Shown: piece after piece, positions 1,528 to 6,051 of the stretch
Numbering within the stretch: position 1 is the stretch's first letter
Layout: each line of letters opens with the position of its first letter
Assembly (NCBI GenBank): GCA_913049525.1
Contig: CAJWYZ010000023.1
Coordinates: 1 to 12,121 of the forward strand
DNA length: 12,121 nucleotides
From: an uncultured Fidelibacterota bacterium
GTDB lineage: Bacteria > Fidelibacterota > Marinisomatia > SCGC-AAA003-L08 > D37C17
Reading direction: 5' to 3'
Program-made: the position numbers and the translations under genes
The notes under the pieces: model-generated
Told to the model about the DNA's origin: nothing
The model's input: the letters and a program-made list of their open reading frames with translations, nothing else
Database searches by the model: none

Positions 1528-3087
1528 TCAGTATACTTCACTCCGGTAATCTTCCTGGTCAATCATTTTTTTTGCATCTGTGAGCCAGCTGGTAAATCCC
1601 CGAGTACGTTCAGTATTTAATAATTGATCTCGAATAGAAGTAAAATTATCTTGATATAATGAATCATTAAACTCATCTCTGGAGCTCATTTTTAAAAGTA
1701 AGACTGCATTGAAAGTCTCAATAACACCTGAGGTCTCTCCGGCATTCATAGCAAGGAGTGTGCCCGTTAGTTGATTGCTTTTCCCAATGCCCGTAAAGGA
1801 CCCACCTAAAGTTGAGGATTCACCTGAACTAAATTGAAGTAATGAATCTGAACTAGCCAACGCTTCCCAGTTATCTGTTCCAGATATGGCATTCAATTTA
1901 TTGGCGGCATATTCTTTTTTATTATCTCTCAGCAATGATCTGCGGATGCTTTCTTTCACATCAGCCATTGGTTTAAATCCACTATTTTTTTCACCTATTA
2001 AGTGGAAAACTGCTATTCCATTATTTGTAGTAATAGGGTCAGAAAGTGAACCCATTGAATTATCAAAAGCAAAACGCACAGCCGGTCTTAACACCCCCAT
2101 TTGAAATGGAATACCTGAATTTGCCTCAAATGTTTCATGCACATCAATTGTATCAACAGAACTTACTTCATGCTTTGAAACTGCTTCAGCAAAAGAATAA
2201 TCTTCCGCATCTGCAGAAAAATCTAACACTAACTGCATAACACTATCTTCAACGGCAGATACCATTAAACTATCATCACTGGTTACCGGTTTTGGAATTT
2301 GAAATACAATATACTCTAATGTTTTACGTTCTTTAACTGTATAAGAATCCTCTTTGTCTGTGTTGTATTTTTCGGAAATTTGATCATCACTTACTTCAAT
2401 TAATGAATCTGGGATACCACTTAATGTCAAATAAAGATAGTCCAATGTACAATTCACATTTTTCTTAATAAAATCTCTCTTCACATCTTCATCATTTACA
2501 GAACCCAAATTATTATAAATGGTCTGAAGCTTTCTATCCGCTAACCAAGTCCTGAGATAATTTTCCCAATTAACAAGTAGCGGATTCAATTCAACGGGAA
2601 TATTGCCATTTTCTACTGCTTGTTCGTAAGAGTCCGAATCAAATTTTCCATCCTCATTTAAAAAGAATCCTGCATTTGTAAGATCAGTCTGGAAAGCTGG
2701 AGGTGGAGTTATTAGAAGAAAATCATATATTTCATCCAATGAAACTTCTAATCCCAATTGTTTAATTTTTTCATCTTTTAGTTCGCGTTCAATAATTGCA
2801 TTCCATGCAAAGTCTCCCGCATTTTGGTAGGCACGATTATCAATTGCCTGTCCCTGTCGCCGCATTCGGTTTAGCTGATTTTCCCGTTGTTGTAAATATC
2901 GACTATGAGTAATGTTCTTTCCATTTATTTTGCCGGCGTTTAAACGAACATTTTTCCCACCGAAAACTAGATCCATAATATTAGCGCCTCCTACAAGTCC
3001 GCCAACTGCCATACTTAAAATAAAAAAGAAGAGTAAAAGCCATAATACTACATGGGATCTTTCTCTCAGTTGAGTCATATTAAACAC
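1528..3087 (-). CDS. Membrane-anchored PpiD/SurA-like peptidyl-prolyl isomerase/chaperone
   Basis: This is a periplasm-facing folding factor of the SurA_N/parvulin group, 519 residues long. A single membrane segment lies at about residues 12-33 (VVLWLLLFFFILSMAVGG), with RER just before it, consistent with an N-in anchor. Residues 45-240 look like the helical SurA_N chaperone region, including INGKNITHSRY and LGLEVSLDEI. Residues about 255-370 resemble a parvulin fold (TLEYIVFQIPKP, then AFDNSMGSLSDPI and GIAVFHLIGE). The start is a GTG at 3087: a GGAG lies 8 nt upstream of it, whereas the in-frame ATG at 3078 would be 17 nt away. The stop is TGA. tRNA-Ala lies 47 nt upstream on the same strand and may share its promoter. 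The general class is clear. Whether it is a true PpiD orthologue and keeps isomerase activity is uncertain, because the parvulin region is divergent. Confidence 0.87.
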   Translation of the reverse strand: MFNMTQLRERSHVVLWLLLFFFILSMAVGGLVGGANIMDLVFGGKNVRLNAGKINGKNITHSRYLQQRENQLNRMRRQGQAIDNRAYQNAGDFAWNAIIERELKDEKIKQLGLEVSLDEIYDFLLITPPPAFQTDLTNAGFFLNEDGKFDSDSYEQAVENGNIPVELNPLLVNWENYLRTWLADRKLQTIYNNLGSVNDEDVKRDFIKKNVNCTLDYLYLTLSGIPDSLIEVSDDQISEKYNTDKEDSYTVKERKTLEYIVFQIPKPVTSDDSLMVSAVEDSVMQLVLDFSADAEDYSFAEAVSKHEVSSVDTIDVHETFEANSGIPFQMGVLRPAVRFAFDNSMGSLSDPITTNNGIAVFHLIGEKNSGFKPMADVKESIRRSLLRDNKKEYAANKLNAISGTDNWEALASSDSLLQFSSGESSTLGGSFTGIGKSNQLTGTLLAMNAGETSGVIETFNAVLLLKMSSRDEFNDSLYQDNFTSIRDQLLNTERTRGFTSWLTDAKKMIDQEDYRSEVY

Positions 3088-3134: not shown

Positions 3135-3207
<73 letters not shown>

Positions 3208-3366: not shown

Positions 3367-4449
3367 GTGGCACATAAAAAACAAATTATATTCATTATTT
3401 CGCTGACAATTGTTCTGGGGCTTATCCGTTTTTCACTCCTGGATGATCCTGAGTTTACCCTTATTAAAAAAGAGCGAATTGTGGAAACTATCAGTTCATT
3501 TTCTGTACCAGAGAATATGACTTCACCTATGGCAATAAATATAGAATTTGCCCAAAATCTTTTCAATGAGAAATCAGCCATTTTTATTGATGCCCGCGAT
3601 TCTGAGGATTATAATTCTGGACATATTGAGAATGCTATTAATATCCCCTTCGATTATTACGAAGATTACGAAGATATTATAAATGAACTGGATGATACTG
3701 CCCCCCATGTCATTTATTGTAGTGGTGAAGAATGTTCTCTCAGCATGGATTTGGCCGATTACTTTTTTAATGAATTGGCTTTTGAAAATATATTGATATT
3801 TGAAGGTGGCTGGCCTCAATGGAGAGATGCCGATTTACCATCATCACTCAATATTTCAGCTATTATTGATTCGCCCCCTACAGAAACTATTATTAATTTA
3901 GATGTTATAATATCCTGGATAACCCTAATCTCAGCAATTTTCATTGCCCTTCACTTTCTTTTAATAAAAGGATATATCTCAATCTCAATTTCTAGTATCA
4001 ATTCTTTGGATATCACTATAATTCCTCGAATAATATTGGGGGCAGTATTTATTATTGCCAGTTACCATAAAATTTTAGACCCTGCCTCCTTTTCGAATAA
4101 TATTCATAATTTTCATATTACACCGTCAGCAGTAGAAAATCTTGCTGCACTTTCCATTCCCTGGCTAGAATTGATTCTTGGTGTATTTCTCATTTTTGGG
4201 GTATTTTTAGAGGGTAGCATAAGCCTGACAATTGGACTATATATCTTTTTCATATTTATATTATCTCAAGCAGTTTTTAGAGGGATTGATGTGCATTGTG
4301 GGTGTTTTAAAACAGAAGCTGATGCTGGGGTCGCAGATTTGAAAATGGGCTTAATAAAACGAATTGGGGAAGATTTCTTGCTTTTAGGCATGGCTTTTAT
4401 TTATAAAATGAAAAACAAAATTACATTATCAAATAAGGAACACGAATGA
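3367..4449 (+). CDS. Membrane protein: rhodanese domain fused to MauE/DoxX-like domain
   Basis: A 360-residue protein. A membrane anchor at about residues 6-22 is followed by a rhodanese domain (about 60-150) with DARD at 75-78, GHIENAINIP, and the active-site loop YCSGEECSLS. There Cys118 is the expected persulfide-forming residue and Cys123 an extra loop Cys. From about 177 there are four to five membrane segments typical of MauE/DoxX-like proteins, ending near HCGCFK (310-315), a Cys-Gly-Cys motif that recurs in MauE-like domains. MauE is linked to disulfide formation in methylamine dehydrogenase maturation. The first segment probably places the rhodanese domain outside the cytoplasm. The start is GTG at 3367: an in-frame TAA at 3361 leaves no upstream alternative, and no Shine-Dalgarno site is visible. 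Its TGA stop overlaps the next ATG (ATGA, 4446-4449), so the two are probably translated together. The likely role is sulfur transfer or thiol redox at the membrane; the substrate is unknown. Confidence 0.85.
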   Translation: MAHKKQIIFIISLTIVLGLIRFSLLDDPEFTLIKKERIVETISSFSVPENMTSPMAINIEFAQNLFNEKSAIFIDARDSEDYNSGHIENAINIPFDYYEDYEDIINELDDTAPHVIYCSGEECSLSMDLADYFFNELAFENILIFEGGWPQWRDADLPSSLNISAIIDSPPTETIINLDVIISWITLISAIFIALHFLLIKGYISISISSINSLDITIIPRIILGAVFIIASYHKILDPASFSNNIHNFHITPSAVENLAALSIPWLELILGVFLIFGVFLEGSISLTIGLYIFFIFILSQAVFRGIDVHCGCFKTEADAGVADLKMGLIKRIGEDFLLLGMAFIYKMKNKITLSNKEHE

Positions 4450-5624
4450 ACAAAATATTTGGAATGATTATACTGATGCTTTTTCAGATCGGTTTGGCAG
4501 AAACTGTCGCTTCCAAACAGATACGAATTGTCGGCACCGCTAATGTGCATGGTGAAACCGACCCTTGTGGCTGAAAAAAGAAACCTCTGGGCGGTCTTGC
4601 CCGGAAAGCTACAATTATTGACAATCTCAGATCGGACGGATTTGATGTCATCATTTTAGATGCGGGGAATCTCCTCTTTAAAAAGGAAACCTTAGGTCCA
4701 GGATCTCCAACTGAAATTGCCAAAATGACTGCTGAAGTTATTGTTTCTACTTTTAATGAAATTGGCTGTCATGCATTCTCACCCGGCTCAAAAGATTTTG
4801 CAGCAGGACTTGCATTTATTCAAGAAATGCAAATGCTGGCAAATTTCCCATTTATATCAGCAAATATTCTTGATGTTAATGGCAATCGCCTTTTTGACCC
4901 TTATGTAATTGCTGATGTTGAAGGCGTCTCTGTTGGCATTATAGGTTTAGCATCTAACTTTATTCATTCAGATGTCTATATTCAAGATCCTATTGAAGCA
5001 TTAAACGAACTAGCAGGTGAAGTGAACAGTCAATCTGACGTATTGGTGCTAATGTTTGATTCTGAAGAAGCTGATATTATAAAAATGCAAACCTCTGGAT
5101 TTCCTATTGATTTGGTAATTCGTAGCAAATCTAAAACCCGATCCCAAGATGGTGGTAAACGCGACATTCCATCATATTCTTGTGGGGATAGAGGTAAATA
5201 TCTATATCAGTTTGACCTTACTGTTGCAGACCCAAATAAGCAATTTATAGATTTGGCGGTATATGAAAATCAGATGTCTCAAGCAGAAAAAAAACTAAAT
5301 AAAATGAGAAAAGGAAATCTGATTACAGATTTACATAATGTCTATAAAGATGATCCCCCAAGCTTGAAGAAAATCGAAACGTATGAATCTCAAATCCAAT
5401 CTGCGAAAGATGCCCTGAAAAATACTGTGAACTCAATAAAAATGAGTAAACATGAATTGGGAAAAACAGTAACAGACCGTCCGGATATTTTACAAATAGT
5501 CGATAATGGTAAGGCCAAAATCAATAACTCATATGGACCTCAACCTCCATCTGGTACACCACCGGGGAAAAATCAAAAAAAAATTGGACATGATCATGAT
5601 GGTGATGGAATTCCAGATCACTAA
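4446..5624 (+). CDS. Predicted secreted selenoprotein, 5'-nucleotidase/metallophosphatase-like fold with Cys-Gly-Sec motif
   Basis: A 392-residue protein if the in-frame TGA at 4572-4574 is decoded as selenocysteine (residue 43). The ATG at 4446 has AGGA 6 nt upstream and overlaps the previous stop. Residues 1-18 form a signal peptide. The N-terminal metallophosphatase-like region runs IRIVGTANVHG, DPCG-Sec-KKKPLGGLARK, IILDAGN (72-75) and SPGSKDF (112-118). Relatives recalled from several phyla carry PCGC before GGLARR, so Sec replaces the second Cys. Compared with UshA-type enzymes the metal-binding motifs are changed: NDxHG is ANVHG, DAGD is DAGN, and GNHEF is GSKDF. Phosphatase chemistry is therefore doubtful and a redox role more likely. 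Other Cys are at 108 and 246. A coiled-coil-prone stretch (about 277-340) and a tail with DHDGDGIPDH, resembling a calcium-binding loop, end the protein. A conventional start at 4725 (Met94) would remove the signal peptide and motif. Confidence 0.87.
4572..4605 (+). promoter_or_regulatory. Bacterial SECIS element downstream of in-frame UGA
   Basis: After the UGA (4572-4574), 18 nt lead to a hairpin loop GGUCUU (4593-4598). The stem is UCUGGGC (4586-4592) with GCCCGGA (4599-4605): seven pairs, one of them G-U. In E. coli fdhF the loop GGUCU also starts 18 nt after the UGA. Bacterial SECIS elements bind SelB through conserved G and U residues at the loop, which are present here. In both genes the codons GGU-CU(N) encode Gly-Leu at positions +7/+8 after Sec. 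Translation must pass through the hairpin, so it is both coding and regulatory. Confidence 0.85.
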
Positions 5625-5687: not shown

Positions 5688-5760
5688 GCGAAAGTAGCTC
5701 AGCTGGTAGAGCATAACGTTGCCAACGTTAGGGTCGTCGGTTCGAATCCGATCTTTCGCT
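5688..5760 (+). tRNA. tRNA-Gly (anticodon GCC)
   Basis: A 73-nt cloverleaf with acceptor stem GCGAAAG/CTTTCGC, D-arm GCTCAGCTGGTAGAGC, anticodon stem TAACG/CGTTA with loop TTGCCAA giving GCC, T-loop TTCGAAT, and discriminator T as usual for glycine. CCA is not encoded. It is the first of three tRNA genes on this strand. Confidence 0.97.
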
Positions 5761-5824: not shown

Positions 5825-5896
5825 GGCGTCGTACCCAAGCGGTAAGGGAGCGGTCTGCAAAACCGTCATGCACCAGTTCGAATCTGGTCGACGCCT
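5825..5896 (+). tRNA. tRNA-Cys (anticodon GCA)
   Basis: A 72-nt cloverleaf with acceptor stem GGCGTCG/CGACGCC and short D-stem CCC/GGG. The anticodon stem CGGT/ACCG encloses loop CTGCAAA, giving GCA. The T-loop is TTCGAAT and the discriminator is T, a strong cysteine identity element. CCA is not encoded. It is not tRNA-Sec: the anticodon is not TCA, and there is neither an extended acceptor stem nor a long variable arm. Confidence 0.97.
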
Positions 5897-5963: not shown

Positions 5964-6049
5964 GCCGAGATGGTGAAATTGGTAGACACAAGGGACTTAA
6001 AATCCCTCGGACATATATGTCCATCCCGGTTCGAGCCCGGGTCTCGGTA
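5964..6049 (+). tRNA. tRNA-Leu (anticodon TAA)
   Basis: An 86-nt class II tRNA with a long variable arm (CGGACATATATGTCC region). The acceptor stem is GCCGAGA/TCTCGGT; the G1-U72 pair also occurs in E. coli tRNA-Leu(UAA). The anticodon stem AGGGA/TCCCT encloses loop CTTAAAA, giving TAA. The T-loop is TTCGAGC and the discriminator is A, as required for leucine. CCA is not encoded. Confidence 0.97.
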
Positions 6050-6051
6050 CA

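Follow-up and report, generated by a model that had tools for sequence, protein, structure and literature searches.

A heme-less UshA-like selenoprotein translationally coupled to a rhodanese–MauE membrane protein in a Fidelibacterota genome

The UGA codon at positions 4572–4574 (+) of the 12,121-nucleotide stretch that we analysed, which we call the window, almost certainly encodes selenocysteine. It lies in a gene at 4446–5624 (+) whose product is a UshA-like selenoprotein of 392 amino acids, a heme-less variant related to the family UshA_like_PCGU, with an N-terminal signal-like helix. Immediately upstream, and translationally coupled to it, is a gene for a rhodanese–MauE membrane fusion (3367–4449, +). 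The UshA-like selenoprotein family itself is already known; the window protein represents a distinct, marine form. As far as our literature searches show, what is new here is the heme-less variant coupled to rhodanese and MauE, the loss of its metal site, and the likely record in this family of changes from selenocysteine (Sec) to cysteine.

The reading frame and its in-frame TGA

An earlier note on this DNA proposed that a continuous frame runs from ATG 4446 through the TGA, and this holds: translated with TGA as U, 4446–5624 gives 392 residues without a break, and its only in-frame TGA falls at residue 43, the last position of a C41-G-U43 motif. The Shine-Dalgarno site and ATGA coupling that the note described are also there, as a Shine-Dalgarno-like AAGGAA at 4435–4440 (+), 5 nt before the ATG and identified by eye, and as an overlap in which the stop codon of the upstream gene (TGA 4447–4449) shares bases with the selenoprotein start. 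So are the motifs TANVHG before the TGA and PLGGLARK and IILDAGN after it, while the signal peptide appears as a judgement by eye and as an N-terminal helix in the structural model. Codon usage, scored after training on the window's other genes, favours the selenoprotein frame in all three stretches: +0.197 bits per codon before the TGA, +0.297 from the TGA to Met94 and 0.317 after Met94. The other two forward frames score negatively, and one reverse frame reaches a weak +0.087 in the stretch from the TGA to Met94. Three tRNA genes lie around the operon according to Rfam (3135–3207 on the reverse strand; 5688–5760 and 5825–5896 on the forward strand), and a fourth, Leu-like tRNA stretch was seen by eye at about 5966–6050 (+).

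The homologues have either UGA or Cys codons at residue 43, as the earlier note had suggested they might. Among 108 loci (L011–L118) we could read the site in 104 that have a long frame around it, with a pattern that demanded C at 41 and accepted C, U, W, S, G or A at 43, so that Trp, Ser, Gly and Ala were permitted as well (L079 is a stretch of 10 bases). The codon is TGA in 87 loci, TGT in 13, TGC in 4 and TGG in none, in a set that includes some genes fetched twice–for example, L039 and L080. Because the rows were picked by a motif demanding C41, the invariance of that residue is not a result. Loci missed by the pattern were recovered by TBLASTN: two have Cys at the site (L041, DCGC; L051, EPCDC), and L077 has a stop there, which the phylum-wide search identified as one TGA. 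That search found a match to the window protein in 229 of 245 genomes, although weak matches may be ordinary nucleotidases. Among the 150 matches listed, 138 hold at least one TGA and 12 have no internal stop. The five copies from the same genus are intact, with one TGA each, so the random stops that the earlier note had named as a danger sign are absent from these close homologues; they do appear in more distant relatives, five of which, among the 138 listed with a TGA, have a further stop. Two loci (L025 in G177 and L031 in G179) contain an additional stop within the match, either another TGA or a TAA. The closest named relatives that we found are MAGs of Candidatus Neomarinimicrobiota (L081–L085), a phylum that NCBI taxonomy now names Fidelibacterota. 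The TGA recurs in several of these MAGs, which are of other origin, and so is not a sequencing error, another possibility that had been raised.

Downstream of the TGA is a bacterial SECIS apical hairpin at 4587–4604 (+), with arms at 4587–4592 and 4599–4604 and a loop at 4593–4598 (GGUCUU). It contains the octamer GGCGGTCT (4590–4597, +), which starts 18 bases past the first base of the TGA and whose flanks form six base pairs. After removal of N-containing, short and duplicate windows, 79 of the 104 rows were unique, and the octamer is present in all 65 unique TGA loci as against 1 of 14 Cys loci (Fisher P = 5e-14, ignoring kinship between loci). Rows with GGLAR have a loop of 6, with 272 of 276 cells paired, and rows with GGLSR or GGLPR have a loop of 5 and a one-base shift of the 3' arm, and 105 of their 114 cells pair; the formal pairing counts are 98.5% of cells (44 rows) and 92.1% (19 rows). 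Covariation scores were 0.321 and 0.359, compared to shuffled means of 0.151 and 0.164, and none of 500 shuffles scored as high. Versions of the hairpin that were slid along the sequence gave far lower scores. The number of pairs changed on both sides was by itself no better than in shuffles (444 and 468 of 500), and the energy of the window hairpin by itself is unexceptional (z = -1.64; 21 of 200 shuffles as good), so the case for the SECIS is comparative. We dropped a stronger claim based on the energy of the single hairpin. Across the family, the hairpin covaries in TGA loci and is gone in the Cys forms, save for the octamer in one locus (L050, described below).

Protein databases either cut this gene short or misread its site. 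As the earlier note had predicted for a standard call starting at 4725, with the loss of 93 residues, the relative P0012 from Candidatus Marinimicrobia (87% identity over 76% of the query) is entered as a hypothetical protein of 299 residues that starts at the equivalent of Met94. We found 238 protein homologues; among the 120 listed, 72 do not include the site and 48 reach it, all of them with PCGW, and none is entered as a selenoprotein reaching the site. The PCGW entries, which include P0002, P0003 and P0015, could mislead family models. Because no DNA locus has TGG, we infer that the W of the databases is TGA read by gene callers with translation table 4.

Two readings of the TGA compete with selenocysteine, and we regard both as extremely improbable. 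A reading of the TGA as tryptophan, by a reassignment like that of code 4, would fit the W in all 48 site-reaching homologues among the 120 listed, but TGG is absent from all 104 loci even though the filter permitted W. The same reading is at odds with the genuine TGA stops of the window (the rhodanese–MauE gene and that at 1528–3087 both end in one), with the Cys alternates, and with the SECIS. The TGA could instead be a true stop, with a protein starting at 4725 (Met94) or a gene in decay, which would fit the 299-residue product of the standard call (P0012) and the further stops in 5 of the 138 listed TGA-bearing copies. Coding signal and homology continue on both sides of the TGA, however, 138 of the 150 listed matches hold a TGA and the remaining 12 no stop, and the hairpin covaries. 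We tested the possibility of a pseudogene as well, and rejected it.

Selenocysteine machinery and exchange of Sec for Cys

The genome that contains the window (1.49 Mb in 236 contigs, 91.7% complete) has a tRNA-Sec (68.4 bits), selA (532 bits) and, adjoining selA on contig 64, selB (400 bits). Of the four genes that the earlier note had proposed looking for, only selD was not found over the cut-off in this MAG. It does exceed the cut-off in 3 of 5 genus-mates and 17 of the 23 family genomes, and for this reason we read its absence as a gap in the MAG. Each of the 17 selD copies over the cut-off in this family (f1) has one in-frame TGA.

Across the phylum, tRNA-Sec is over the cut-off in 153 of 245 genomes. 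We re-searched 34 low scorers, a subset picked by hand of which 33 have a listed TGA copy: 31 stayed below the cut-off, and the other three scored 47.1–49.0 bits, little above the best score (46.6) in the sister genus discussed below. A simple rule that a TGA copy implies a detectable tRNA-Sec therefore fails, because about 30 MAGs have a TGA copy without an over-cut-off tRNA-Sec. Their completeness is 55–96%, and 8 of the 9 members of f1 in the low-scoring set have a Sec-type selD, which makes gaps the simplest reading. The missing tRNA-Sec genes are probably assembly gaps, a divergent tRNA-Sec being another option, and these MAGs leave our near-certainty about Sec where it was. Three SAR406 single-cell genomes appear among organisms with an orphan SelD in one paper (PMC5029168); these may be incomplete genomes or other lineages.

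A sister genus (g29, 24 reduced genomes) appears to have switched from Sec to Cys along with losing the Sec machinery. None of its 24 genomes is over the cut-off for selA, selD or tRNA-Sec, and gaps are a poor explanation for three genes missing from all 24. The best tRNA-Sec score, 46.6 bits, stays just under the cut-off of 47, most genomes reaching about 43, and these matches below the cut-off are presumably other long-arm tRNAs. The UshA-like gene itself is found in 19 of the 24 (as two pieces in one genome, G042), with no stop within any match, and the nine copies that we fetched (L041 and L042–L049) all have Cys at the site. The codon is TGT, in the motif DCGC, in L042–L049 and also in the named relatives L106–L109 and L118. 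The locus L050 (2835–3998, in genome G197) has TGC at the site and retains the octamer GGCGGTCT; tRNA-Sec and selD are both present in its genome. The locus looks like a recent switch from Sec to Cys with an apparent relic SECIS.

In a tree of 65 proteins, an alignment thinned by hand from 81 and with the site masked, Cys rows fall within groups of Sec rows at four points, and four Sec/Cys changes are required. The tree was made by a quick method with SH-aLRT support only, was rooted by hand on L110, L112 and L113, and has long branches at L117 and L111. Because the root was chosen in this way rather than inferred, and because the loci were sampled with Sec-type queries, the direction from Sec to Cys is only likely; with that reservation, the family likely records repeated switches of this kind. 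The claim of the earlier note that the TGA is Sec43 is thus one on which the site codons, the covarying SECIS, the presence of tRNA-Sec, selA and selB, and the joint loss in the sister genus all agree.

Family, fold and genomic partner

The family, which the earlier note had supposed to be undescribed, is in fact known. It is in NCBIfam, and the 2008 GOS selenoproteome paper lists 'COG0737, UshA-like, CxU' among previously described families (PMC2398784), in a row with the numbers 76, 20 and 92, which, from a header that is partly visible, we take as Sec sequences, samples and Cys homologues. Later tables also include the COG0737 UshA-like CxU selenoprotein in 2026 (PMC13188914) and the UshA-like family in 2022. 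The best NCBIfam match of the window protein is NF041198, 'UshA-like (seleno)protein', at 202 bits (E = 1.5e-59) against a cut-off of 275. This match spans positions 4–384 of the 519 in the profile and includes the N-terminal PCGU / GGLAR module, leaving the last quarter unmatched. Two of ten relatives scanned, L112 and L114, exceed the cut-off (347.7 and 357 bits), and both have a C-terminal cytochrome c554-like domain (PF13435), from which we take such a region to be a trait of NF041198. In the eight others the match ends at profile position 376–391 and scores 184.8–250.5 bits, so that the window protein and 8 of 10 relatives score too low to be named by the curated cut-off. PF13435 is absent from the window protein, to which no Pfam family matches at E = 0.001. 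With a match confined to profile 4–384, and with high scorers that carry PF13435, the window protein is a heme-less variant related to NF041198, and by its cut-off not a member. In L110, L112 and L113 the PCGU gene (509–513 amino acids) stands before a gene of some 745 amino acids whose start region has ATKSPKFCG, and the upstream ORFs of these loci, judged by eye, resemble another UshA-like copy.

The AF2 model of the window protein has a pLDDT of 90.3, the last folded helix ending at residue 363 and residues 375–392 falling below 50. Its fold is that of a 5'-nucleotidase/SoxB catalytic domain without the metal ligands. The matches, with Z-scores of mostly 31–32 to UshA, CD73 and 3ivd and of 30–31 to SoxB, cover the calcineurin-like metallophosphoesterase fold over the whole catalytic domain. 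We found no sign of a C-terminal 5'-nucleotidase substrate domain (no Pfam match, and the protein ends at residue 392). Of the 8 metal-site positions, 4 is the most that any row retains, and the window protein retains 1. The Asn-His dyad of motif III is kept in none of the 65 rows, the motif-II Asp in 37, the motif-IV His in 17 and the motif-V His in 14. Since two to four metal-site residues are kept in some clades, metal binding is possible there. With so degenerate a metal site in the phosphoesterase fold, the 'active site' of this protein should be understood as the CxU pair and not as the nucleotidase site.

The coupled upstream gene has a rhodanese domain (PF00581, about 3550–3828, +) and a MauE membrane domain with a CGC motif (PF07291, about 4015–4353, +), both assigned by Pfam. 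In 43 of 81 loci, BLASTP places rhodanese/MauE relatives next to the selenoprotein gene and on its strand; depending on the clade they lie upstream or downstream of it, and they are either fused or two genes. Every locus with a MauE hit (42 of 42) keeps the CGC of MauE, and every locus with a rhodanese hit (42 of 42) keeps the rhodanese Cys. In the other 38 loci BLASTP found no rhodanese/MauE neighbour; some of these are cut by contig ends and some are not. The Cys copies of the sister genus adjoin a gene that, by eye, resembles what we take to be a PepSY-type membrane protein. The swap of gene order while the partners are kept, the fusion of the partners and the fused cytochrome in other lineages suggest a role in moving electrons or sulfur, not in phosphate chemistry. 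The literature that we searched mentions neither a rhodanese or MauE partner of UshA-like selenoproteins nor the UshA-like family in Marinimicrobia. Rhodanese and MauE thus give a concrete, testable partner set for a selenoprotein family that is listed without a function in the passages that we consulted.

A proposed function and comparison with known proteins

We consider it reasonably probable, with much less assurance than for Sec itself, that the product of 4446–5624 is a periplasmic selenol oxidoreductase, built around CGU on a dead phosphoesterase fold and partnered by the rhodanese–MauE protein. SelB and tRNA-Sec almost certainly read UGA 4572–4574 as Sec, directed by the hairpin at 4587–4604, and the selenoprotein would be secreted to the periplasm. 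Judging by the alignment and the model, its 5'-nucleotidase/SoxB-type metallophosphoesterase domain has lost its metal ligands and catalytic Asn-His dyad, and its fixed chemical feature is the C-G-Sec pair, which sits in the loop that follows strand 1 and is probably placed beside the vestigial metal pocket. The selenol could attack a disulfide, persulfide or similar substrate, and the neighbouring Cys could resolve the selenol-substrate intermediate. The membrane MauE domain, through its CGC, may exchange electrons with the CGU protein, and the rhodanese domain, through its active Cys, may supply or accept sulfane sulfur. In the two over-cut-off members scanned (L112 and L114) the fused C-terminal cytochrome c554-like multihaem domain would be the electron partner, which points to a redox role as well. 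We infer the oxidoreductase role from the alignment, the model and the gene context. One published grouping counts against it: in the GOS paper, UshA-like, SelD and FdhA are exceptions among the major families in lacking a Cys-based redox motif, though its table has CxU (PMC2398784).

A broader version of this proposal, which we hold tentatively and would rate at somewhat below an even chance, is that metal-free 'pseudo-nucleotidases' throughout the phylum have turned into selenol-dependent sulfur/disulfide oxidoreductases. The CGU would have replaced the di-metal centre, a relay from rhodanese Cys to MauE CGC to soluble CGU would replace the fused cytochrome of the canonical family, and there would have been repeated switches from Sec to Cys, one of them with loss of the machinery.

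Two other functions have to be weighed against an oxidoreductase, and both seem unlikely to us. The protein might still be a phosphohydrolase or a SoxB-like sulfur hydrolase, in which the Sec/Cys pair holds a metal with unconventional ligands or forms a structural bridge. The UshA/CD73/SoxB fold over the entire catalytic domain, the motif-II, -IV and -V residues retained in 37, 17 and 14 of 65 rows, the adjoining sulfur partner (rhodanese), and the GOS paper, which does not put UshA-like with the Cys-redox families (PMC2398784), would all suit a hydrolase; the loss of the motif-III dyad from all 65 rows, the single metal-site position of 8 kept in the window protein and the lack of any sign of a C-terminal substrate domain would not. 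Alternatively, the selenol or thiol could serve in the binding, detoxification or delivery of a metal or metalloid, bound by CGU together with the His/Asp-rich C-terminus GHDHDGDGIPDH. Many rows have an H-rich C-terminus (His384 is present in 22 of 65), and MauE and rhodanese partners could conceivably serve metal-thiol chemistry, but the H-rich tail is not common to the whole family, and in the window protein (residues 375–392) it lies in the low-confidence part of the model, with pLDDT below 50.

Compared to UshA, CD73 and other 5'-nucleotidases, the window protein has its metal and catalytic residues replaced, has a CxU motif, and has no C-terminal nucleotidase domain that we could see. It differs likewise from the SoxB thiosulfohydrolases (2wdc, 4uwq), whose metal-site residues are not conserved in the window family, and it scores 32.9 bits to the SoxB profile TIGR04486, which has a cut-off of 550. 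To UshA-like (seleno)protein family 2 (NF049981) it is a weak match (34.5 bits, below the cut-off of 140), and the motif tabulated for that family is CxxU (PMC13188914), as against CxU here. The closest likeness is to NF041198 UshA_like_PCGU, with which it shares PCG-U followed by GGLAR, a degenerate UshA-type domain and CxU; in place of the c554 end seen in L112 and L114, the window protein has a rhodanese–MauE neighbour.
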